The translations under genes and the position numbers were made by a program. This document shows, in pieces, positions 27,519 to 38,089 of a DNA stretch of 64,000 nucleotides. Origin of the DNA: Balneola sp. (GTDB lineage Bacteria > Bacteroidota > Rhodothermia > Balneolales > Balneolaceae); the NCBI GenBank assembly GCA_003712055.1, contig RHLJ01000005.1, positions 62,001 to 126,000 on the forward strand, read 5' to 3'. Below the pieces are notes generated by a model, which saw only the letters and a list, made by a program, of their open reading frames with translations, did not search any database and was not told the origin of the DNA. The stretch's first letter is position 1, and each line of letters begins with the position of its first letter.

Positions 27519-28987
27519 TATGGAGTAGAAGATGAATTGTTGTATTGCTCTATTAAGTTATCAAGTACTTCGGTAAAATTGAAAGAGGGACGAATATCAT
27601 TATATCTTGAGATATTTCCATCAGGATCTACCAAAATATAAAAAGGAATTCCTCCTCCTTTATACGCTTTGAAAGTTTCTTGCTGCATACCATCGCCACC
27701 ATAAAGTTGAGGCCATGGATTTTTAAAACGAGTGATGTCTTGTACCCAAACCAAACTATCTACTTCTGTGGATATTGCTACTATTTCAAAATCGTCTCTA
27801 CTGTAGCTACTATATATTTCTCTCATGTGCGGAAATTCTTCCAGGCAAGGTTGACACCATCCTGCCCAAAAATCAAGAAGTACAAATTTTCCTTTATAAT
27901 CTGAAAGCGTGTGGATGTTACCTTCCAGATCTGAAATAGAAAAGGGTACGGCAGGTTGACCTGGGGAAACGGATTTAATTTCATTGTAAAACCAACCAAG
28001 AAATTCTGTGTATTCTTCAAATTCAGCGTAATCTTCCAAGTAGGCTAAATAACTAGGCTCTGAAATGCTGAATGGCTGCTCTCCAATTCTCTCTGCAACT
28101 AAAAACATTTCTGCATAAGCTTTTGTATCCTGATCTTCAATGTGTTCAATCACCTGCATTCTTTTTTCGTCCAGCTCAGGATAGGCAACTTGCTTGATAT
28201 CATATTCAGCAAGATTCATTTGGAAAGCATTTACTACACTATCATACACTCCAAAAGTCCTGGAGTAATAATGCGTAAAGTCCCTTATTCCGGCTCGTTG
28301 AGACTCAAGCACATCAAGACTGAAGAAGTCTTTAGAAACGGCCTCCTGAATAACTTTTTGTCGAGCAGTATCTACATCATAATTTCCAATATGGCGGTCG
28401 GAGTATTCAACAGCTCTTAGTTTTAATACTAAATCTTCGCCAACTACTTTTTGATAGAGTGGATCAAAGAGCGTTCCTTTTAGGTATTTTTCTGCACGAC
28501 TTAGCTTTTCTTTACTGTAAGCAAGAGCTGAGTTTTTTTGACCAACTTTAAACTTATCCATCTCTAATTTAATAGCTGCGTCTAAGCCATTTATTTCCTC
28601 AAGGTACTCCTGATAGTTCAGATTTAAATTCTCATGATCTCCTGAAATGGCTACTTCAAATGGAAATGCCGCTCGTTTAATAGTAATTGAAGAAGATTTT
28701 CCGGGTTCTATATAAATAGGATACGACTCGTCCTGAATCGATAACCAGACAATCATAGGTTTATCAGCTGGGATAGAAAGCTCAAAGTTTCCTCCTTCCA
28801 ACTCCAGATTGTACTGTTCTTTAATTGAATATTTATAGTGGAGAGGAGGGATTTCTACATATGCATTAGTATTTCCAATATAATCGATCGAGCCTGAGAG
28901 ATAAGCTTCGTTTGAAGAACTACAGTTAATAAGTAAAATGGAGATAAGAAGAGCGGGTATTCTTAAGTGTAATAATTTTATTTTCAT
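27518..28987 (-). CDS. TlpA-like thiol-disulfide lipoprotein
   Basis: A 489-aa exported protein with lipobox Cys22 (LINCS). An N-terminal beta domain (about 30-120, like DUF4369) and a helical middle region (about 120-330) precede a C-terminal thioredoxin fold (about 345-480). The active site is WCQPC (377-381). Such Bacteroidota proteins reduce or isomerise disulfides in the periplasm. It is the first gene of the operon with GH3, HD and SGNH genes. A shared role in envelope maintenance is plausible but unproven. Confidence 0.85.
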   Translation of the reverse strand: MKIKLLHLRIPALLISILLINCSSSNEAYLSGSIDYIGNTNAYVEIPPLHYKYSIKEQYNLELEGGNFELSIPADKPMIVWLSIQDESYPIYIEPGKSSSITIKRAAFPFEVAISGDHENLNLNYQEYLEEINGLDAAIKLEMDKFKVGQKNSALAYSKEKLSRAEKYLKGTLFDPLYQKVVGEDLVLKLRAVEYSDRHIGNYDVDTARQKVIQEAVSKDFFSLDVLESQRAGIRDFTHYYSRTFGVYDSVVNAFQMNLAEYDIKQVAYPELDEKRMQVIEHIEDQDTKAYAEMFLVAERIGEQPFSISEPSYLAYLEDYAEFEEYTEFLGWFYNEIKSVSPGQPAVPFSISDLEGNIHTLSDYKGKFVLLDFWAGWCQPCLEEFPHMREIYSSYSRDDFEIVAISTEVDSLVWVQDITRFKNPWPQLYGGDGMQQETFKAYKGGGIPFYILVDPDGNISRYNDIRPSFNFTEVLDNLIEQYNNSSSTP

Positions 28988-29303
28988 TGATAGTTAGGTA
29001 ATAAAGTATTGAGAGAATAGGTTTATTAGAAAATCTTAAAGTTTGTCATTTTATCGAATTAACCATCTCTTTTAGTTCAGTTAATAGTTAAAAAATAATT
29101 TCAATTATTGGTGTAACAATTAGTTAACATCTTTCTCTTAAAGTTGAAGCAATCAAATTAACGAGCAAATAATTCGATTGCTGAATTTTATAGGGAATAG
29201 ATATTGTAGAGAAGTGAACAAAAAAAGACGGTATTTTTTGCTCAATCAAAAAAATCCCAATAAATGAGATAAATACAATAAACCAATATCTAACGATCAG
29301 ATA
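28988..29303. other. Divergent intergenic region before the TPR/anti-sigma-like gene
   Basis: The 316-bp A+T-rich gap has no credible gene. It contains a candidate sigma-factor site at 29111-29139 and a leader of about 165 nt before the ATG at 29304. A GCAAATAATTCGATTGC dyad lies near 29165. The minus-strand promoter for the TlpA-like operon must also be here but was not pinned down. Confidence 0.5.
29111..29139 (+). promoter_or_regulatory. Candidate ECF-sigma promoter of the TPR/anti-sigma-like gene
   Basis: GTGTAACAA (29111-29119), 14 nt, then TCTCTT (29134-29139). The words and spacing match the two sites before the lipoprotein-CHAT operon (34079-34107 and 34000-34028). A 16-nt gap between TGTAAC and TCTCTT is normal for ECF promoters. 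The start codon is 165 nt downstream, which is long. Confidence 0.5.
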
Positions 29304-30041
29304 ATGATAGAAAGTAATGTCAAAAAAGACTTGGAGCATAAAATTGACTTATATGTTAATGGAAAGCTAAGCCAAGACCAAGTCGACGAACTTTGGGCTG
29401 AGTTAATACAAGACGGTTACTATTTGGATTACACTAAAAGTGTTGCCAACATTAAAGCAGTTATTGAATCACAAAGGCTTAATAAGAATACAGCTCCGGT
29501 ATACAAACTGCGTAAAATTGCCAGCTATGGAACAGCAGCAGCAATAGCAATTATAATTGGAGTTATAAGTGTTATCAATTTCTCTGGTAATGACCAAACC
29601 TTCTCTCTTCAGGCCGTGAATGAACTTGATTTGGGGGAGGTTCGTGGAGATAGCGAATTATTCACCCCGACTGAAGTTATTGCCGAGGCTATTGAACTAG
29701 CTAATAATGGAAATGTAGAACAAGCAGTAACTTTACTCGAGAGAGAAATAGACCGCACTGAAGATCCGGATTTAGTAGCAGAGATTTCTCTTACTCTCGG
29801 ATCAATTCAATATAATTACGGTGAATATGACGCAGCTCTCTTGAGTTTTGAAAGAGTTATAAGTCAAAATACTATTGACGTAAAAAATCTGGATAAAGGA
29901 TATTGGTATTTAGCCAATACTTATCTTCAATTAGGTATGCTAGATAAAGCAGAATCTGCATTTAGAAATGTATATGAGCTTGATCAGGGATATAGCAGGA
30001 TCGCTAAGACTTACCTGGATGCTTTTGAAGAAAGCCGATAA
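29304..30041 (+). CDS. Membrane TPR protein with anti-sigma-like topology
   Basis: A 245-aa protein. A cytosolic N-terminal region of about 70 residues (YVNGKLSQDQVDELWAEL...) is followed by one membrane segment (about 73-92, AAAIAIIIGVISVIN). The periplasmic remainder has TPR-like helices (about 115-240; QAVTLLEREI, then ALLSFERVI and KAESAFRNVYEL). This one-pass plan with a short helical N-terminus is that of anti-sigma regulators, although the zinc HxxxCxxC motif is absent. It is convergent with the CHAT gene; the stop codons are 2 nt apart. The link to the sigma factor at 34300 is inferred from proximity and the shared promoter motif. Confidence 0.65.
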   Translation: MIESNVKKDLEHKIDLYVNGKLSQDQVDELWAELIQDGYYLDYTKSVANIKAVIESQRLNKNTAPVYKLRKIASYGTAAAIAIIIGVISVINFSGNDQTFSLQAVNELDLGEVRGDSELFTPTEVIAEAIELANNGNVEQAVTLLEREIDRTEDPDLVAEISLTLGSIQYNYGEYDAALLSFERVISQNTIDVKNLDKGYWYLANTYLQLGMLDKAESAFRNVYELDQGYSRIAKTYLDAFEESR

Positions 30042-30043
30042 TC

Positions 30044-33000
30044 CTAAAACGAGTTTTCTCTGATTAAAAAGATTCCTCCAATAATTATTACAAAGAATAT
30101 TGGATACAATAAGCCAGCACTAGCTGGCTTTTTTGTTAGAGGAGAAGGATTTCCTATAAGCATGTATGCTCCCCAATAATAAGGGTTAGCATTTCCGGTT
30201 TTTAATAAGTTCAATTTGGCAGACCTAATTGCGTCCTCCTTTGAAATACCATCATTTACATCAGAATAGAATACGGAAGCAAACTCGGAAGCCGACTTGT
30301 CATTAACTGACCATAAATTAAGTGCCAGACTCTTGGCTCCTGCATATCTTAATGCTCTGCTAACTCCTACAACTCCGGCACCTTGTATATAGCTACCTGA
30401 GCCCGAGCTACAAGAATTCAGCATAATAAATTGATTGTTCATATTTGCATCAAAGAGCTCATAAGCATATAAAGGAGAAAATCCGTCATTAGAATCATCT
30501 CGTAAATAAATGGTAGAAAATAAAGGGTCTTGTTCGGAAACTTCACTATGAGTGGCGACATGAATGATTTCCGAGTTTGATACCATATTTAAGAATGAAG
30601 ATTTGGTAGCGTTCCTCTCGAGGAAAATTTCCTGATCTTCAAAATTTACCATATGCGAACTTATTTCTCTCACTTCTTTAGTTGCAAAGGGAAGGGAACC
30701 TAAGCGATCATTTCCAGAAGCTTCAAAATTGGAAAGTGCAAACGCAGAAAAGCTGATTCCATGACTAGTTTTTTTCTTTCTGGTGTTATCCTGAAATTCA
30801 TTTAAAGAAGTGAAATACTTAATAGTGTACTCCTCAATTAAGTATCTGGTAGAGCCATAGCTAGTTGCTGATTCTGGCTTTTTGATCGGGAGAACCTCTA
30901 ATGGAATTCTATATAGATAGTTGTCAGGTATAACAGTAAGCTTAGAAATGCCTTCAGGAATTTCTTGCTCAAGGCGAAGTGTATTATAAATTTGATGAAG
31001 TTCATTTAAATCAGTTTCTGCTGAAGCAAGGTTATCAGCGCCAGAAATAAATAGTTGTTTTGCTTCAGAACTAAATTCAATTGGTACAATCTTTATATCA
31101 TTTCTGGAGATATAGCTTGTATACAATACATTACCTACCTCAGCAAAATGTATTATGAGTTCTTCATCCGAAAGTTTGCGCTGTGCTGCCCATATTGATG
31201 GGGGCTCAAGTGAAGTATTCCTCCTGATTTTATTTAAGATCTGTTCTCGTTGAGCCTGTAACTGATCAATTTCTGCTTTCAGTTCCAGTTTTTTAGAATT
31301 CGATGACACATTTAGATACTGAGTTCTAAGATCGAGAACACGGTTGTTTAACATTTGATCCTGAGCAAGGTCTAGCTCGGATAATCTCTTGGCCCTCAGA
31401 ATTGGACTGTTATATAAGGCAGCATCGTTTATTGTTTTAATTTCATCTAACAACTGTACTGCCTTAGCGAATTGACCAGACTCCAGAGCCATATTGATGA
31501 GCGCGTTGAAGGCCTCCAAATATTCTGGCTGTATAGACCAGAACCCTGTTTGTGAATTGATATTCGTTCGTTCTCGATTAACAATTTGATCAATTACAGG
31601 TTCTAACTGCAAAAAAGCGCCTCTTAAATCGCCTTGTTTTTGAAGGTATCTTGCCTCAATGGTTCGGTAATCCACCAAAAGCTCAAACTCAATATTGTCG
31701 AGGGGGTATATTTTGATTTCAGATAGTAATTCGGATGTCTCTGTTAAATTTTCCTGTTCAAAAGCAATTTTAGTAAGCCCTATTAATGCCTCCAGATAGA
31801 AAGAGGTATTTGAACTTCGAATGGAAAGTTCTTTTAAGTTATGGTATTTCTGAGAAGCTTTATCCCATTGCTTGATTGAGGCTAGAATTTCTGCTTCCTG
31901 TTTCAGAACCCTTACATAGTCACTGAAATGATTGACAGAATCTAATTCAGTTTGAGCCAATTGAAGTTCTTGTAAGGCTTTTTTTGCATCACTAAAAAAA
32001 TCCCAATAAAAACTGCCAGAAAAGAAATGAAGCATGGCTAATTCATAACGATCGTGGTTATCACTTGCAATTTTCTCTGCTTGATTTAGGTAGCTAATAG
32101 CTGTTTGAACATCTTTTATTTCGGTATAGTAACTGAACAGGTTTTGAATTATGATAAGCTCGTGTTTATACACCGAATCTTGTTGGGCTTGTATTAATGC
32201 ATCGAACTGCATATTTAAATATTTATTCTTTTGGCCAAGTTTTCTATAGCAGAGACTGAGGTTATTGAATAACTCAGATTTGGAAATGGAGCTGTTTGGA
32301 TCATTGTACAGCTTTTCATACTCAACCCTGGCTTCATCAAACTTTCCTAATGAATAAAGGCTAAATGCTTTCCTAGATATAGCTTGTTCATACATTTGTG
32401 TGAAGCCTAGGTATGTTGATAATGGAATAAGTTGTTCTCTCAAGATCCGGAGTGACTCATCATATCTTCCAATTATGATAAGAGAATAGTTGGCTATGTT
32501 TAAATACCGAGATAGATTAGTTGAAATTGGGAAAAGCTCTTCTGTACTTATGAAAGGTAAGAGATATTGCAAATCCTCATAGCGGTCAATCTCAAAAAAA
32601 ATAGTCATAAGATTGATGAGGCGGATAGAATCAATAAGATCATTGTTAAATCCCTCTTTCCTAAAGTATTCAATCCAGGTTTCAGCAAGAGAGTTTAAAA
32701 AATCAGAATCGAGAAGATAACTGGTATTATTTGTGAACAGAATACTATTTATGATTAAATCTATATCCGGATTTAGAAGAACATTGATATCTAGTTTAAC
32801 TTTGTTATTAATACTACTAAGTAATCCTAGTTCTCTCTGATCAATACTTTCAGACCAACTACTGTCAAAATTTTGAAAAAACTCGGTTCTTTGAACTTCA
32901 GATGGTTCTAACAGGATATATAGACTTGCAATTTTGACGTCACCATGGTTTAGGGCAAAATTACTTAACCTCAAAAGTCTATTAGTGTTATTAGAAGCTT

Positions 33001-33250
33001 CATCTTCTCCGCACCCATATTCAGAAAAAAAATATCTAATACTACTAGTCGATCCGAAAATAGCTCGTGAAACAGAATTATGTATCTGGCATGTTGAGCT
33101 AAAAATCTCATTTAAGGCCCAGAAATTTTCCGTGAGATTTTCTTCCTTCTCTATTGCTTCAATATACTTATAGGTTTGGTTAATGAGCTGCTCATCTAAA
33201 CTTGCTTCTGTACCTAAAAATAACCCAAATAATAGAATTATGAATTTCAT
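30044..33250 (-). CDS. Exported TPR-CHAT protease with C-terminal membrane anchor
   Basis: A 1068-aa protein. It has a signal peptide (about 1-17), a long TPR-like helical solenoid (about 60-640), and a C-terminal CHAT (caspase-HetF-associated) peptidase domain (about 740-1040). The catalytic His is in HVATHSE (His901) and the Cys in LNSCSSG (Cys947). A membrane segment at about 1047-1063 (FFVIIIGGIFLI) has only a few residues after it. The protease is thus expected in the periplasm, tethered by its tail. Three lipoprotein genes lie directly upstream in the same direction (51-nt gap), so one transcript is likely. CHAT proteases are usually activated by partner binding to their TPRs; the lipoproteins are the obvious candidate substrate or signal. 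Confidence 0.88.
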   Translation of the reverse strand: MKFIILLFGLFLGTEASLDEQLINQTYKYIEAIEKEENLTENFWALNEIFSSTCQIHNSVSRAIFGSTSSIRYFFSEYGCGEDEASNNTNRLLRLSNFALNHGDVKIASLYILLEPSEVQRTEFFQNFDSSWSESIDQRELGLLSSINNKVKLDINVLLNPDIDLIINSILFTNNTSYLLDSDFLNSLAETWIEYFRKEGFNNDLIDSIRLINLMTIFFEIDRYEDLQYLLPFISTEELFPISTNLSRYLNIANYSLIIIGRYDESLRILREQLIPLSTYLGFTQMYEQAISRKAFSLYSLGKFDEARVEYEKLYNDPNSSISKSELFNNLSLCYRKLGQKNKYLNMQFDALIQAQQDSVYKHELIIIQNLFSYYTEIKDVQTAISYLNQAEKIASDNHDRYELAMLHFFSGSFYWDFFSDAKKALQELQLAQTELDSVNHFSDYVRVLKQEAEILASIKQWDKASQKYHNLKELSIRSSNTSFYLEALIGLTKIAFEQENLTETSELLSEIKIYPLDNIEFELLVDYRTIEARYLQKQGDLRGAFLQLEPVIDQIVNRERTNINSQTGFWSIQPEYLEAFNALINMALESGQFAKAVQLLDEIKTINDAALYNSPILRAKRLSELDLAQDQMLNNRVLDLRTQYLNVSSNSKKLELKAEIDQLQAQREQILNKIRRNTSLEPPSIWAAQRKLSDEELIIHFAEVGNVLYTSYISRNDIKIVPIEFSSEAKQLFISGADNLASAETDLNELHQIYNTLRLEQEIPEGISKLTVIPDNYLYRIPLEVLPIKKPESATSYGSTRYLIEEYTIKYFTSLNEFQDNTRKKKTSHGISFSAFALSNFEASGNDRLGSLPFATKEVREISSHMVNFEDQEIFLERNATKSSFLNMVSNSEIIHVATHSEVSEQDPLFSTIYLRDDSNDGFSPLYAYELFDANMNNQFIMLNSCSSGSGSYIQGAGVVGVSRALRYAGAKSLALNLWSVNDKSASEFASVFYSDVNDGISKEDAIRSAKLNLLKTGNANPYYWGAYMLIGNPSPLTKKPASAGLLYPIFFVIIIGGIFLIRENSF
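30111..30134 (+). terminator. Intrinsic terminator inside the 3' end of the CHAT gene
   Basis: AAGCCAGC, loop ACTA, GCTGGCTT and a run of T's form a perfect 8-bp stem. On the plus strand it ends the TPR/anti-sigma-like gene 70 nt after its stop, although the bases also encode CHAT residues near 1040-1047 on the other strand. Confidence 0.85.
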
Positions 33251-33301
33251 TAAAGAATGTACACCACACAGATCATTCTTTCACACCAAAAAAAGAAAAA
33301 A

Positions 33302-33490
33302 TTAAAGGACGGGTTTAGTGAGGATAGGTCGGGTAGGGCCGCCAGCAAAAGCAGCGTCATCATCGGTGATGGTGATTTCTACTTCCGGTTGCGTTGCTTC
33401 GGTGGTAGCCGGGGTTTGGTTGGCCGGAGCACAGGCGAAAGAGATAGCAACGAGAGTAAGTAGGGTAAATAGAGACTTAAGCGATTTCAT
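33302..33490 (-). CDS. Small lipoprotein of 62 aa, tandem copy nearest the CHAT gene
   Basis: The signal peptide has lipobox ISFAC (Cys20), so the mature part is about 43 residues: a Thr/Pro/Glu-rich linker, an acidic EITITDDDAAF stretch, then GGPTRPILTKPVL at the C-terminus. No family is recognised. The protein is identical to the copies at 33535 and 33768. The DNA differs from them at six positions, all synonymous, so the frame and strand are real and the sequence is under selection or gene conversion. It lies 51 nt upstream of the CHAT protease. Confidence 0.85.
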   Translation of the reverse strand: MKSLKSLFTLLTLVAISFACAPANQTPATTEATQPEVEITITDDDAAFAGGPTRPILTKPVL

Positions 33491-33534
33491 GATGATTGTT
33501 GGATTTTATAATTAGGATTAAATAAAGGTTAAAA

Positions 33535-33723
33535 TTAAAGGACGGGTTTAGTGAGGATAGGTCGGGTAGGACCGCCAGCGAAAGCTGCATCATCGTCGGT
33601 GATGGTGATTTCTACTTCAGGTTGCGTTGCTTCGGTGGTAGCCGGGGTTTGGTTGGCCGGAGCACAGGCGAAAGAGATAGCAACGAGAGTAAGTAGGGTA
33701 AATAGAGACTTAAGCGATTTCAT
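33535..33723 (-). CDS. Small lipoprotein of 62 aa, middle tandem copy
   Basis: Identical protein to its two neighbours: lipoprotein signal with Cys20, acidic middle, GGPTRPILTKPVL tail. The nucleotide sequence appears identical to the copy at 33768. It is read in the same direction as the CHAT protease and separated from the next copy by a 44-bp spacer. Confidence 0.85.
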   Translation of the reverse strand: MKSLKSLFTLLTLVAISFACAPANQTPATTEATQPEVEITITDDDAAFAGGPTRPILTKPVL

Positions 33724-33767
33724 GATGATTGTTGGATTTTATAATTAGGATTAAATAAAGGTTAAAA

Positions 33768-33956
33768 TTAAAGGACGGGTTTAGTGAGGATAGGTCGGGT
33801 AGGACCGCCAGCGAAAGCTGCATCATCGTCGGTGATGGTGATTTCTACTTCAGGTTGCGTTGCTTCGGTGGTAGCCGGGGTTTGGTTGGCCGGAGCACAG
33901 GCGAAAGAGATAGCAACGAGAGTAAGTAGGGTAAATAGAGACTTAAGCGATTTCAT
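33768..33956 (-). CDS. Small lipoprotein of 62 aa, first tandem copy of the operon
   Basis: It is the promoter-proximal copy, identical in protein sequence to the other two. Two candidate sigma-factor sites lie 44 and about 123 bp upstream. Three equal copies suggest that dose matters, as for an abundant envelope component, a protease substrate or a secreted peptide precursor. Confidence 0.85.
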   Translation of the reverse strand: MKSLKSLFTLLTLVAISFACAPANQTPATTEATQPEVEITITDDDAAFAGGPTRPILTKPVL

Positions 33957-33999
33957 AATAAATTGTATTTGATTTTAGATTGTAATTTTAGTCCAGATA

Positions 34000-34028
34000 A
34001 AGAGTTTTTTATATCGAATTTGTTACGA
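34000..34028 (-). promoter_or_regulatory. Candidate ECF-sigma promoter, proximal copy
   Basis: On the minus strand, TCGTAACAA, 14 nt, ACTCTT, followed by TATCTGGACTA. It lies 44 bp before the first lipoprotein start. It is part of the 41-bp direct repeat. Confidence 0.6.
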
Positions 34029-34078
34029 AAAAAATGATCTTTACTTAGATTTTAAAATTTATATTTATAGTCCAGATA

Positions 34079-34107
34079 AAGAGATTTTTTCACCTCTTTT
34101 GTTACAC
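34079..34107 (-). promoter_or_regulatory. Candidate ECF-sigma promoter, distal copy
   Basis: On the minus strand, GTGTAACAA, 14 nt, TCTCTT, followed by TATCTGGACTA. It has the same spacing as the proximal copy, 79 bp away. Two tandem promoters, or one promoter and one further sigma or activator site, would both fit. Confidence 0.6.
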
Positions 34108-34299
34108 TTTTAACCTACCCTAAAAAACTCAAACACACCAAATTTTTGTTAAGATTTCTTAATCTAAGCTCTAAAAAGAGCCAAATTTGAATCATATAAT
34201 AGTTTTTAAGTATCAAGTAGAGTTTTATATTCTCTGCGAAATAGCTATTCAGAATTTGAGTTTGAAGTAGTACTTAACAATAACTTTTAGTCGTTTCTT

Positions 34300-34863
34300 T
34301 TGACAAAAAACAGAGTTGATTATTCTGAGTTAGTTGTAGCTCTTCAGAAAGGAGACGAAACTACATCTGCGAGGCTAATAAAAGAACTTACACCAAGGTT
34401 AGAGGATTATCTGGTGGTAGTAATGAATGCCGAGCGTTATTCAGCAGAAGAATGTGTTCAACAAGCCTTTCTTGATGTTTTTGAACAGATTAGAAAAGAT
34501 AACATTAAGGAGAAAAAATATATTTTTAGTTATCTGATAAAATCATGCAGACATGAGTATTTACGATATAGTAAAAGAGAGCATAAATTTAAGTATGAAG
34601 AAGAAGCTCTGAATGTACTTTATGAACCAGAAGAGCAAATAAAAAACCTATTAGATCAAGAAAGACAGCGAATTCTTGAAGATTGTTTAAACGAACTCAA
34701 AGCTAAATCAAGACGGTTTATTGAATATTTTATTGATAAGCCAGATGCAACTACAGATGAAGCTACAGAGGAATTTGGGCTAAGCAGTGCAAATGTTCGA
34801 ACCAGAAAATCAAGGATTCTCAGTCGCCTTCATCATTGCTATAAGCGTAAATCTAATGAGTAA
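34300..34863 (+). CDS. ECF-type RNA polymerase sigma factor, TTG start
   Basis: A 187-aa sigma-70-family protein. Region 2 (about 8-85) includes AEECVQQAFLDVFEQI and FSYLIKSCRHEYLRY. Region 4 (about 125-182) has the HTH TTDEATEEFGLSSANVRTRK. The start must be TTG at 34300: an in-frame TAG lies four codons upstream (34288), and the first Met comes only after region 2 has begun. A TTG start may keep its level low. It is divergent from the lipoprotein-CHAT operon, whose upstream region carries two copies of a shared motif, and is the likely regulator of it and of the gene at 29304. That link is inferred. Confidence 0.88.
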   Translation: MTKNRVDYSELVVALQKGDETTSARLIKELTPRLEDYLVVVMNAERYSAEECVQQAFLDVFEQIRKDNIKEKKYIFSYLIKSCRHEYLRYSKREHKFKYEEEALNVLYEPEEQIKNLLDQERQRILEDCLNELKAKSRRFIEYFIDKPDATTDEATEEFGLSSANVRTRKSRILSRLHHCYKRKSNE

Positions 34864-34958
34864 AAGCTTACAAGAGAGAGTGTAACAAGTCTTGTAATTT
34901 ACTATTCAATAAGGGTTTAAAAAGCGATAAGATTATTTTCTTTTAGGATGTAACAAAT

Positions 34959-35618
34959 TTAGATCATTCTGACAATTTCCTGATTTACGATTCCATAGAC
35001 TTGTTCACCGGATTTAGGTGTAATTGGATGAGTACCTGTAAATCCACCAAAAGCAGGTAGTAATCCAAATTGTTCTCCAAAATAGAAACAGGGTATTCTA
35101 AGCTTTTGACGTGCTTTCCCTTTAAGAATAACCGAAGGATGGATATGCCCGGATATCGTATAATTTTTGTTGGAAGAATCAATCAAAGTATAATCGTGAC
35201 AAAATGTAAATGGAACGCTATCAATTATAGATGTACAAATGAGCCCTAATGCCTCATATTCTTCAGGGGAATAAAAATCATGGTTACCCATAGCTAAAAT
35301 CATCTCAAGAGAAGAGTAGTTGGTACGCCAATTTTTGAATAGTTCCCATTCAATGTTCTTGTCGCTATGAAAAAGATCACCAAGGAAAAGTACTTGGTTC
35401 GGTTTAAATCGCTCTATAAGTGAATCAATTCGATTAAGATTTTCATTATTTACCCCACTTGGAACTGGTATCCCCGATTTTTGAAAATGTCCTGTTTTTC
35501 CAAGATGTAAATCTGAAAGAATTAAGGTCCTTTGATTTATCCAGAACATTGCTTTTTCGGGAGTGAGAATAAACTCTTGACCGATAAGTTCTATTTGAAA
35601 GTCTTTTTTAGATATCAT
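34959..35618 (-). CDS. pdeM: Ligase-associated DNA-repair phosphoesterase PdeM
   Basis: A 219-aa calcineurin-like metallophosphoesterase. The metal ligands are in order: LSDLHLGKTGHF (about 32-43), FLGDLFHSDK (about 79-88), MGNHDFY (about 111-117), and SGHIHPS (about 156-162). Relatives beside ATP-dependent ligases are annotated as DNA-damage-response endonuclease PdeM. It overlaps the 3' end of the helicase gene by 4 nt, so the two form a coupled pair. The ligase and exonuclease of the same set are 15 kb away at 17347-20187. Confidence 0.88.
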   Translation of the reverse strand: MISKKDFQIELIGQEFILTPEKAMFWINQRTLILSDLHLGKTGHFQKSGIPVPSGVNNENLNRIDSLIERFKPNQVLFLGDLFHSDKNIEWELFKNWRTNYSSLEMILAMGNHDFYSPEEYEALGLICTSIIDSVPFTFCHDYTLIDSSNKNYTISGHIHPSVILKGKARQKLRIPCFYFGEQFGLLPAFGGFTGTHPITPKSGEQVYGIVNQEIVRMI

Positions 35619-38089
35619 TTAACGTGTTTCCCAAGTTGCACCTGCATCCTTTTAATTCGATCGATTAGTTTTTCAGAACTAAGTTTGCCCCTCAATCTAT
35701 CTACCATTATGGGAAATGCATAAGGTGTAAATCGTTCAGTATGATTTAACACAATTTCTTGTTTCTGAATTTTCATCATCACCTTTCTTAACCTGATTTC
35801 ATCAAGTTGAAAAAACATGACCTCATCAAAAGCTTGCCGAATTAGTAGATGATCAGGTTCATACTGCGTGAATACATCAAAAAGAAGGCTTGAATTCATT
35901 CTTAAGTGTTTCGTTTTGCGCTGCTCTCCCGGGAAACCATGAAAGATTAATCCAGCTACCTGCCCAACTTCCCAGAATTTTCTTTTAGCCAACTCACTAT
36001 TGTTAAGGCTTGCTCGAATATCCTCAGTTAGATGATCCACAGAGAGTACATCACTTTTTAATGCTTCTTCTATGGGGATATCCTGATCTGATAATAACTC
36101 AAATCCATAATCATTCATGGCTATCGAAAAAGTAATAGGAGTCATCTTTGAGATCCTGTGAGCAATAACAGCCGACATTCCCTCATGTACATATCTTCCT
36201 TCGAAAGGATAGAAGAATACATGGCAACCTTCTCTTGAAAAACTCTTCTCTATTAGAAATTGATTTTCACTCGGGAGAATAGACCAGGCTTTTTGTACAT
36301 CAAGAATAGGGGCGATGGTATCTAGCTCAACCATACCTGTATTACCCGAAATAGCCTTTTGCATAGTCCTGCGAAGAATTCTGGACATATTCGAAGAAAG
36401 GGACATGCGCCCGCCTTGCCAGCTCGGTACTTTTGATTTTGAACCCTTAGCCCTTTTAACAAAAGCGGTGTTTTCTTTGATTTGTATCAATTCCAGATTC
36501 CGTCCGGCAAACCAGAACTTATCGCCAATGTTAAGGCTGGCAATAAAAGTCTCTTCAATAGAACCCAAAGACCCACCGCTCAGGTACCGAACCCTAAGTG
36601 AGGAATCGCTTGTAATTGTTCCTATGCTCATCCTGTGTCTTCTGGCAATTTTCCTGTCTTCAACCGTATAGAGATTATCATCATTGATAATTGCTTTCGA
36701 ATATTCTGGATAGCTACTCAGTGATTTTCCACCAGTAGTAATAAAGCGTAAAGCCCATTCCCATTCTTCGTTGGTTAAAGTCTGATATGCAAATGTGGAT
36801 GTAAGTTCCGGGAACAGATACTCTGGATTAAAACCATCAGAAACTGCCAATGTCACTAAATATTGAACAAGTACATCCATTGGTTTAAGGATGGGTTCAC
36901 GGCTTTCCATTTCAGATTCATCCACAGCATTTTTGAGTGCAGCTGCTTCAATCAGCTCCAGTGCGTGGGTGGGTACAAAGTGAATAGAACTGGTTGCACC
37001 AGGCTTATGACCGCTTCTTCCTGCACGTTGTAGGAAACGAGCAATTCCTTTCGGACTCCCTATTTGAATCACCGTATCAACCGGGCTAAAATCTACTCCT
37101 AAATCTAAACTTGAAGTACATACAACGGCTTTAAGTATTCCTTCATGAAGAGATTTCTCAACCCAATCCCTCACGTCTCTATCCAGAGAGCCATGGTGTA
37201 AAGCAATAGTACCGGCATAATCAGGACTAGTATCAAGAATTCGTTGGAACCATGCTTCTGATTGTCCTCTTGTATTAGTAAAAATTAGTGTAGAAGTATG
37301 ATTGTCAATAATGGGAAGGATTTTAGGAAGTAGGTTTAATCCCAAGTGCCCGTGCCATGGAAAAGTTTCGATTTCATCGGGTAAAACAGATTTGATGACT
37401 ATATTCTTTTTTATATCTGCTTTAACAATTACCGAATTTGAAGAAGAATACTCATTCCCTATAAGTACTTCCAATGCCTGCTCTAAATTTCCAATAGTAG
37501 CAGAGATTCCCCAAATAGAAAGATGAGGTCTTAATGCTTTTAAACGTGACAATCCAAGTTCTACCTGGATCCCTCTTTTAGAACCAAGTAGCTCATGCCA
37601 TTCATCAATAATAATGGCATCAAGGTTTTTAAAATGTCTTGCATAGTTTTTTTGTGCAAGAAGTATGTGAATACTTTCCGGAGTGGTGATTAAAACTTCA
37701 GGCATTTTGCGGTTTTGCTTTTGCTTAACCGATTGAGAAACATCACCAGTTCTTCTTTCAACCTCCCAGGGTATTTCCATTTCATCTAAAGAAGTTTGGA
37801 GAGCGCTTTCAATATCTTTTGCTAAGGCCCTTAAAGGAGTAATCCACAGAACCCTAAGCCCATTTGATGCCTTCTCTTTATAATCCTCAGGATGTTCATT
37901 AATCCATTTGATAATGTTAGGAATCCAAAGAGCAAAAGTTTTACCACTTCCTGTAGGTGCGTTCAGGAGTCCTTTTTTCCCATTCAGGAAATGGCGCCAT
38001 ACTTTCTTTTGAAAAGGGAAGATGGTCCAGCCTTTTGAATGGAACCATTCTTCTACTATTCGTTCGCCATTAGATACCTGTTTTTTCAA
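35615..38089 (-). CDS. Ligase-associated Lhr-like DEXH-box helicase
   Basis: An 824-aa superfamily 2 ATPase. Motif I is APTGSGKT (44-51), motif II is DEWH in IIDEWHELLG, and motif III is SAT in GISATIGN. The second RecA domain has QRAGRSGHKPG (motif VI). A C-terminal region of about 350 residues is characteristic of Lhr-type helicases. It translocates on single-stranded DNA and unwinds duplexes or hybrids in repair. It is the first gene of the pair with pdeM. Confidence 0.9.
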   Translation of the reverse strand: MKKQVSNGERIVEEWFHSKGWTIFPFQKKVWRHFLNGKKGLLNAPTGSGKTFALWIPNIIKWINEHPEDYKEKASNGLRVLWITPLRALAKDIESALQTSLDEMEIPWEVERRTGDVSQSVKQKQNRKMPEVLITTPESIHILLAQKNYARHFKNLDAIIIDEWHELLGSKRGIQVELGLSRLKALRPHLSIWGISATIGNLEQALEVLIGNEYSSSNSVIVKADIKKNIVIKSVLPDEIETFPWHGHLGLNLLPKILPIIDNHTSTLIFTNTRGQSEAWFQRILDTSPDYAGTIALHHGSLDRDVRDWVEKSLHEGILKAVVCTSSLDLGVDFSPVDTVIQIGSPKGIARFLQRAGRSGHKPGATSSIHFVPTHALELIEAAALKNAVDESEMESREPILKPMDVLVQYLVTLAVSDGFNPEYLFPELTSTFAYQTLTNEEWEWALRFITTGGKSLSSYPEYSKAIINDDNLYTVEDRKIARRHRMSIGTITSDSSLRVRYLSGGSLGSIEETFIASLNIGDKFWFAGRNLELIQIKENTAFVKRAKGSKSKVPSWQGGRMSLSSNMSRILRRTMQKAISGNTGMVELDTIAPILDVQKAWSILPSENQFLIEKSFSREGCHVFFYPFEGRYVHEGMSAVIAHRISKMTPITFSIAMNDYGFELLSDQDIPIEEALKSDVLSVDHLTEDIRASLNNSELAKRKFWEVGQVAGLIFHGFPGEQRKTKHLRMNSSLLFDVFTQYEPDHLLIRQAFDEVMFFQLDEIRLRKVMMKIQKQEIVLNHTERFTPYAFPIMVDRLRGKLSSEKLIDRIKRMQVQLGKHVK

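Follow-up and report, generated by a model that had tools for sequence, protein, structure and literature searches.

A conserved sigma factor, TPR protein, TPR-CHAT protease and lipoprotein array of Balneolales as a candidate envelope-stress regulon

A 64-kb stretch of Balneolaceae DNA (the window, meaning the whole stretch that was analysed) contains a locus composed of a gene for an extracytoplasmic function (ECF)-like sigma factor, SIG1, three small lipoprotein genes, a gene for a protease that joins tetratricopeptide repeats to a CHAT domain (TPR-CHAT, or the CHAT protein), and a gene for a TPR protein with one transmembrane segment (TM). Orthologues of these genes occur in the same order across Balneolales, and the locus is therefore more than a chance grouping. 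The interpretation preferred here, whose chances of being right and of being wrong appear about equal, is that the locus may constitute an envelope-stress regulon under proteolytic control, in which the CHAT protein would serve as the site-1 protease for the TPR protein, acting as an anti-sigma factor, while the lipoprotein tail would set the activity of CHAT. The carriers of this gene cluster are a group of salt- and sea-dwelling bacteria.

The locus and its conservation

The TPR gene and the sigma gene are located on the plus strand, with the minus-strand lipoprotein genes and the CHAT gene between them. Consequently, the sigma gene is divergent from the lipoprotein array, and the CHAT and TPR genes are convergent, with a gap of 2 bp that is comparably tight in several relatives. 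Since only 51 bp separate the end of the last lipoprotein gene from the start of CHAT, the three lipoprotein genes and CHAT probably form a single operon. The features of the locus are as follows (window positions):

29113..29139, plus strand: ECF-type promoter GTAACA-N16-CTCTT, 191 bp 5' of the TPR gene; exact match, and in several relatives the TPR orthologues are preceded by it too
29304..30041, plus strand: TPR protein, proposed membrane anti-sigma factor; Pfam TPR, TM in orthologues, AlphaFold2 (AF2) model, position of homologues
29643..29645, plus strand: Arg114 codon, juxtamembrane periplasmic segment, proposed CHAT cleavage site; residue invariant, cleavage inferred
30044..33250, minus strand: exported TPR-CHAT protease with a C-terminal membrane anchor; Pfam CHAT, orthologues in the order, AF2 model, structural matches
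30149..31006, minus strand: CHAT domain, residues 749-1034, carrying the catalytic residues His901 and Cys947, both invariant in 33/33
33288..33986, minus strand: array of three 233-bp units in tandem; relatives have 1-6 copies
33302..33490, minus strand: small lipoprotein gene copy 3, nearest CHAT; tandem unit
33535..33723, minus strand: small lipoprotein gene copy 2; tandem unit
33768..33956, minus strand: small lipoprotein gene copy 1, first transcribed; tandem unit
34000..34026, minus strand: proximal one of the two ECF-type promoters serving the lipoprotein-CHAT operon, at about -70 relative to the first ATG; ten-relative alignment, other families of the order, exact match
34079..34105, minus strand: distal ECF-type promoter of the same operon, about -150; alignment, exact match
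34300..34863, plus strand: ECF-like sigma factor SIG1; NCBIfam sigma70-ECF, orthologues beside the array across the order

A match to CHAT was found in 51 of 59 relatives, although in some of them it is only the paralogue described below. Among the 30-odd loci compared, the arrangement of sigma gene, divergent lipoprotein gene or genes followed by CHAT, and convergent TPR gene is present at nearly every locus long enough to reveal it, and almost all of these loci carry the lipoprotein between sigma and CHAT. The named relatives are Balneolaceae, for example Gracilimonas, Balneola, Aliifodinibius, Fodinibius and Rhodohalobacter. Where CHAT is absent, orthologues of the sigma factor and the TPR protein are likewise absent or only paralogue-like.

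A preliminary description of this DNA had reported the sigma factor, the one-pass TPR protein, the CHAT protease with His901/Cys947 and a C-terminal anchor, and three identical 62-aa lipoproteins, and all of them lie where it had placed them. Its proposal that these parts form one unit is borne out by the joint loss of sigma, TPR and CHAT, and by the sigma-type promoters found ahead of the TPR gene and of the lipoprotein-CHAT operon. It also suggested looking for the lipoprotein beside CHAT in relatives, and this protein, including its conserved tail, does adjoin CHAT throughout the order. Neither the lack of a conserved neighbourhood nor a sigma regulon or anti-sigma partner located elsewhere, which would have spoken against it, was found.

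The same genome holds a second, paralogous set (G000:C4, L070:4878-11789), in which sigma2 and TPR2 stand in tandem and CHAT2 lies two genes away. The two genes between CHAT2 and sigma2 are on the opposite strand and look peptidase-like and ScpA-like by eye. This sigma2-TPR2-CHAT2 set recurs in nearly all relatives, and no lipoprotein array occurs there. A small open reading frame (ORF) beside CHAT2 (L070:4645-4869, minus strand; VVFSRPDD, with a Pro/Gly-rich tail) was considered as a counterpart of the lipoprotein and rejected, having no signal peptide and no counterpart in three relatives. Outside the order, the three genomes with a TPR match all carry the TPR gene directly downstream of a sigma gene and near CHAT (3/3). 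At two of these loci, another exported protein occupies the lipoprotein position beside CHAT, namely an S8 protease (L245:7495-8877) and a PKD-domain protein (L246:8140-10149), so that the exported partner of CHAT may be interchangeable. The core of the system is thus a sigma factor, a membrane TPR protein and an exported TPR-CHAT protein, and the lipoprotein array looks like an addition specific to Balneolales. In one genome, two CHAT genes of this type stand in tandem (L058, G029:C21).

Promoters and putative regulon

An alignment of the sigma-array intergenic region from ten relatives revealed two promoter-like elements with the pattern TGTAACA-N16-CTCTT, near -150 and -70 relative to the first lipoprotein gene. 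These elements are retained over deep divergence, including in other families of the order. The regulon search employed exact patterns and no weight matrix. It found 9 exact sites in the window's own genome, against 5 for a reversed control pattern, and 3 of the 9 are at this locus. With a stricter pattern, 29 genomes of the family that possess the system yielded 218 sites against 14 for the control, whereas six genomes without the system had 0 against 3 (rank test 1e-4, uncorrected for relatedness). A scan for sigma-70-type promoters showed no excess, with 21 sites and 21.2 expected by chance.

Motif sites mostly lie 50-200 bp 5' of start codons. Outside the locus, conserved sites stand before a gene for an M23 peptidase downstream of hprK (seven genomes), a gene for a DUF5939/class III cyclase next to ndk (eight genomes), genes for DUF5916 proteins (six), pilin-like proteins (four) and DUF885 proteins (two), as well as S8 protease genes. 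This suggests that the conserved sites mark an envelope regulon. We infer that SIG1 is the factor that reads these promoters. One relative (G305) has 34 copies of the motif, several-fold more than most others, including copies before AraC-like and S8 protease genes; its regulon appears greatly expanded. G020 and G024, whose sigma orthologues are divergent, have lost the motif, which suggests an altered promoter specificity.

Another conceivable role is that of a CHAT/caspase-type module for phage defence or cell death. CHAT proteases do operate in defence, in Craspase and in SAVED-CHAT systems. Nevertheless, such a role is extremely improbable here and was rejected as a candidate, as the four proteins have no weighty PADLOC match, and the only one of ten neighbours that scores is an Lhr-type helicase, through a PADLOC family shared with housekeeping helicases. 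Moreover, the locus is inherited across an order, and the motif sites precede envelope genes, with no defence genes seen near them.

Sigma factor and proposed anti-sigma factor

SIG1 is a protein of 187 aa with a TTG start and is recognized by the NCBIfam sigma70-ECF model at 45.5 bits (cut-off 42.9). The TTG start is apparently kept in most SIG1 orthologues and perhaps holds translation low.

The TPR protein is predicted to consist of a three-helix cytoplasmic domain (residues 2-62), a TM (73-91) and a periplasmic TPR domain (122-244). The TM is predicted in 33 of 34 orthologues, and the AF2 model (mean predicted local distance difference test score, pLDDT, 81.8) likewise has three helices at the N-terminus, followed by a TM and, at the C-terminus, the TPR domain. 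By sequence and model, the protein would thus have the topology of membrane anti-sigma factors, with the N-terminus inside, a single TM and a periplasmic sensor. A fold search returned generic TPR proteins only, and PDB matches of the N-terminal domain profile were dismissed as chance-like.

Gene position varies between loci. At the locus in the window, the TPR gene lies about 4 kb from the sigma gene, while in the paralogous and out-of-order loci it is directly downstream of sigma. The anti-sigma-like character claimed in the preliminary description gains support from the homologues outside the order, which follow sigma near CHAT as anti-sigma genes do. One of them (L247) has an H-x3-C-x2-C motif in its N-terminal half that is zinc anti-sigma-like by eye, with no Pfam call. 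In light of the topology, the operon position in relatives and the precedent of DdvA, the TPR protein is proposed to be the anti-sigma factor that would bind SIG1.

An opposing explanation is that another ECF sigma factor reads the promoters, that the TPR protein is no anti-sigma factor, and that the neighbouring genes are envelope genes inherited together but not joined in a common proteolytic circuit. The genomes do encode further ECF factors, and the TPR N-terminus receives no confident anti-sigma call from hidden Markov models (HMMs). However, the motif tracks the locus, sigma and TPR are again neighbours, each time with CHAT close by, in the paralogous locus and in three genomes outside the order, and DdvA unites anti-sigma function with TPR-CHAT in one chain. 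This explanation is therefore considered quite improbable.

The juxtamembrane segment of the TPR protein has one invariant residue, Arg114, which is Arg in 32/32 orthologues and is followed by Ser or Gly in 28/32. It sits in a low-confidence loop of the model. In the matching region of the paralogue TPR2, G-[VI]-R-[AS]-K is conserved.

The CHAT protease

The CHAT protein comprises 1068 aa, with a Pfam CHAT match of 2.7e-46, TPRs, a hydrophobic N-terminus and a C-terminal TM at 1045-1063. The catalytic His901 and Cys947 are invariant among 33 orthologues. Because the hydrophobic N-terminus and the C-terminal TM with its short tail are also conserved among orthologues, the enzyme should face the periplasm, judging from these sequence features.

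The AF2 model (pLDDT 84.5) is structurally closest to Csx29 (Z 26.0, root-mean-square deviation (rmsd) 8.3 over 578 residues), and also matches separase (Z 24.9, 3.6 Å over 309 residues), the gingipain RgpB and DdvA (Z 20.5, rmsd 9.7 over 508). The large rmsd values mean that close superposition is limited to the protease domain. When a CHAT-domain profile was compared with the PDB, the top chain was DdvA, with a weak E of 0.02 and with His and Cys in register, while the lone domain as a single sequence gave no PDB match. The TPR profile of the CHAT protein resembles peptide-binding TPRs, namely GPSM2/LGN, kinesin light chain, Rap and NprR. A clan CD CHAT fold with the invariant His/Cys pair is thus present, and proteolytic activity is predicted from it. 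That this activity extends to cutting a sigma inhibitor is proposed by analogy with Csx29, which does so (PMC10028731).

The lipoprotein and its tandem array

The three lipoprotein genes encode identical proteins of 62 aa in a 233-bp tandem unit. Two of the genes are identical in DNA, and the copy at 33302 has six synonymous differences. Terminator-like matches inside these genes were discarded as coding-sequence repeats, and an Rfam search of 28900-35000 gave no match to a non-coding RNA. The protein has an N-terminal hydrophobic signal and an invariant lipobox Cys (lipobox judged by eye). In an alignment of 26 sequences, Lys2, Cys20 (26/26) and Pro60 are invariant. The tail follows the consensus I-[VIL]-x-[KR]-P, with Lys or Arg in 23/26. 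A profile of the lipoprotein has convincing matches in Balneolales only; those outside the order are weak and mostly cover the signal and lipobox within longer ORFs. The small lipoprotein is a new family.

Copy number ranges from 1 to 6 in relatives, and two single-contig genomes hold three and four copies. Array copies are mostly 95-100% identical in DNA, whereas the same gene differs between sister species to the extent that just 67-79% identity remains. Over the arrays scored, the mature part has 33 synonymous versus 10 amino-acid changes, and the signal part 12 versus 13. Such a pattern fits repeated homogenisation combined with purifying selection on the mature part, as read from these substitutions, and gene conversion probably keeps the copies near-identical. 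Many contigs of relatives stop, or contain N gaps, inside the array. At 50 sigma loci, some of which may be SIG2 rather than SIG1 and which come from related, non-independent genomes, the contig stops within 1 kb of the sigma gene in 19 cases on the array side and in 0 on the other (sign test 2e-6). True copy numbers are consequently underestimated.

Several roles of the lipoprotein can be weighed. It is common for a protease to be encoded together with its substrate, and some peptide signals are known to come from tandem precursor genes. The lipoprotein might accordingly be a substrate or effector, cut by CHAT to a peptide with signalling or toxic activity, with the sigma factor merely regulating the operon; these general precedents and the purifying selection on the mature part would suit such a role. 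On the other hand, a basic residue followed by an invariant Pro makes a poor scissile bond, and Pfam and PADLOC searches revealed no toxin or pore-forming domain in the lipoprotein. The paralogous sigma2-TPR2-CHAT2 locus shows no such lipoprotein, so TPR-CHAT works without it there. Overall, this role is improbable. Since the invariant Pro follows a basic residue, the sequence instead tilts towards a tail that is an uncut ligand, as either inhibitor or trigger.

As a trigger, the C-terminal tail could activate the TPR groove of CHAT in the manner of outer-membrane protein C-termini on DegS, or the lipoprotein could be a trafficking sentinel like RcsF/NlpE, which would meet inner-membrane CHAT only when sorting fails. 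In 22 of 26 proteins, the tail Pro comes 1-2 residues before the C-terminus. In addition, the lipobox Cys is invariant, the CHAT TPRs resemble those that bind peptides, and a high dose suits a sentinel. Yet four tails run 3-8 residues beyond the Pro, meaning that a free carboxylate at a fixed distance is not strictly kept, and the lipoprotein is made from the very promoters that it would activate, a positive loop with no visible brake. A triggering role is possible, though rather unlikely. As an inhibitor, the lipoprotein might be a membrane-tethered, securin-like pseudosubstrate of a periplasmic separase-fold site-1 protease, with array copy number setting the response threshold; in this specific form, the idea is a tentative one and unlikely to hold in full.

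Proposed mechanism

Under the preferred interpretation of proteolytic control, SIG1 would drive the TGTAACA-N16-CTCTT promoters of the lipoprotein-CHAT operon and the TPR gene, so that the circuit controls its own parts; the promoters and the co-occurrence of the genes are observed. The TPR protein would hold SIG1 through its cytoplasmic N-terminal helices, its TPR domain being exposed to the periplasm. Once activated, inner-membrane-anchored CHAT would cut the TPR protein in the juxtamembrane loop, plausibly after Arg114. M50 protease genes are present, and a housekeeping M50 protease would then complete the release of SIG1. The lipoproteins would act as tethered peptides, each with a lipid anchor, a flexible linker and, near the C-terminus, the conserved tail I-[IV]-x-[KR]-P, and would regulate CHAT by binding to it. 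With an invariant Pro behind its basic residue, the tail would fit a pseudosubstrate that CHAT binds but does not cleave, and its dose would rise through tandem amplification.

Several observations weigh against this interpretation. No HMM significantly matches the N-terminal domain of the TPR protein (weak zf-HC2 in 5/31, best E 0.07), and an anti-sigma domain search with the single TPR proteins tested gave no match. The divergent members G024 and G020 possess the system and lack the motif, and in the window no such promoter precedes the sigma gene itself. The genomes without the system are small and non-independent, and a general reduction could account for the loss of motif and locus together. 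An Arg at P1 is not needed by known CHAT enzymes; Csx29 cuts Csx30 at residues 427-429 (PMC10028731).

Significance

Most of what is known of TPR-CHAT proteases comes from Craspase, and their link to sigma seemed CRISPR-specific there. Here, the partnership of TPR-CHAT with sigma is vertically kept and probably represents a housekeeping envelope pathway of a whole order. Together with the paralogous copy and the out-of-order relatives, this suggests that control of sigma factors by CHAT is older and wider. Moreover, the lipoprotein arrays have been hidden in draft genomes because assemblies break at them.

Elsewhere in the window, a pair of genes for an Lhr-type helicase and a metallophosphoesterase (34959-38089) are probably ordinary neighbours, the helicase being scored by PADLOC via the shared family alone. 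An 18-bp tandem repeat in 2 copies (28001-28036) lies within a thioredoxin-like lipoprotein gene.

Comparison with known systems

The preliminary description had stated that no system with these parts was described. A search of the literature found no description of this exact set, but the statement was too broad, since DdvS/DdvA and Craspase already link TPR-CHAT to ECF sigma control. TPR-CHAT control of an ECF sigma factor is thus already known, and the lipoprotein array is the one new component.

DdvS/DdvA of Myxococcus xanthus (PDB 8rot, 8rw5) shares an ECF sigma factor, a transmembrane anti-sigma factor and the TPR-CHAT fold. DdvS is active only upon inactivation of DdvA (PMC4374960) and controls an anti-phage island (PMC12288465). 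There, the anti-sigma part and TPR-CHAT reside in one polypeptide, whereas here they are split over two genes, and envelope genes rather than an anti-phage island lie behind the sites. The parts of the DdvS/DdvA reports that were available mention no lipoprotein array.

In Craspase (Cas7-11/Csx29, Csx30 and CASP-sigma of type III-E CRISPR), a TPR-CHAT protease with catalytic His/Cys is likewise tied to an ECF sigma factor: Csx29 cleaves the sigma inhibitor and so provides the link (PMC10028731). That system is cytosolic and RNA-guided, in contrast to the exported, membrane-anchored CHAT protein, and its inhibitor Csx30 is soluble, whereas the sole inhibitor candidate here is the one-TM TPR protein. 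No Cas7-11 or other Cas assignment was obtained among the four proteins and ten neighbours, and CRISPR arrays were not specifically searched.

Separase, with securin, resembles the CHAT protein in that a helical-repeat part precedes a clan CD protease domain. It is eukaryotic and cleaves cohesin, and a securin-like role of the lipoprotein is offered here as a proposal only. The closest parallel in circuit design is RseA/DegS/RseP of the sigma-E pathway in Escherichia coli, with a single-TM anti-sigma factor, a periplasmic sensor part and an M50 protease, of which a counterpart is present here. The difference is that CHAT would take the role of site-1 protease, which in the sigma-E pathway belongs to a PDZ serine protease; if this is true, an exported clan CD protease takes the place of DegS.

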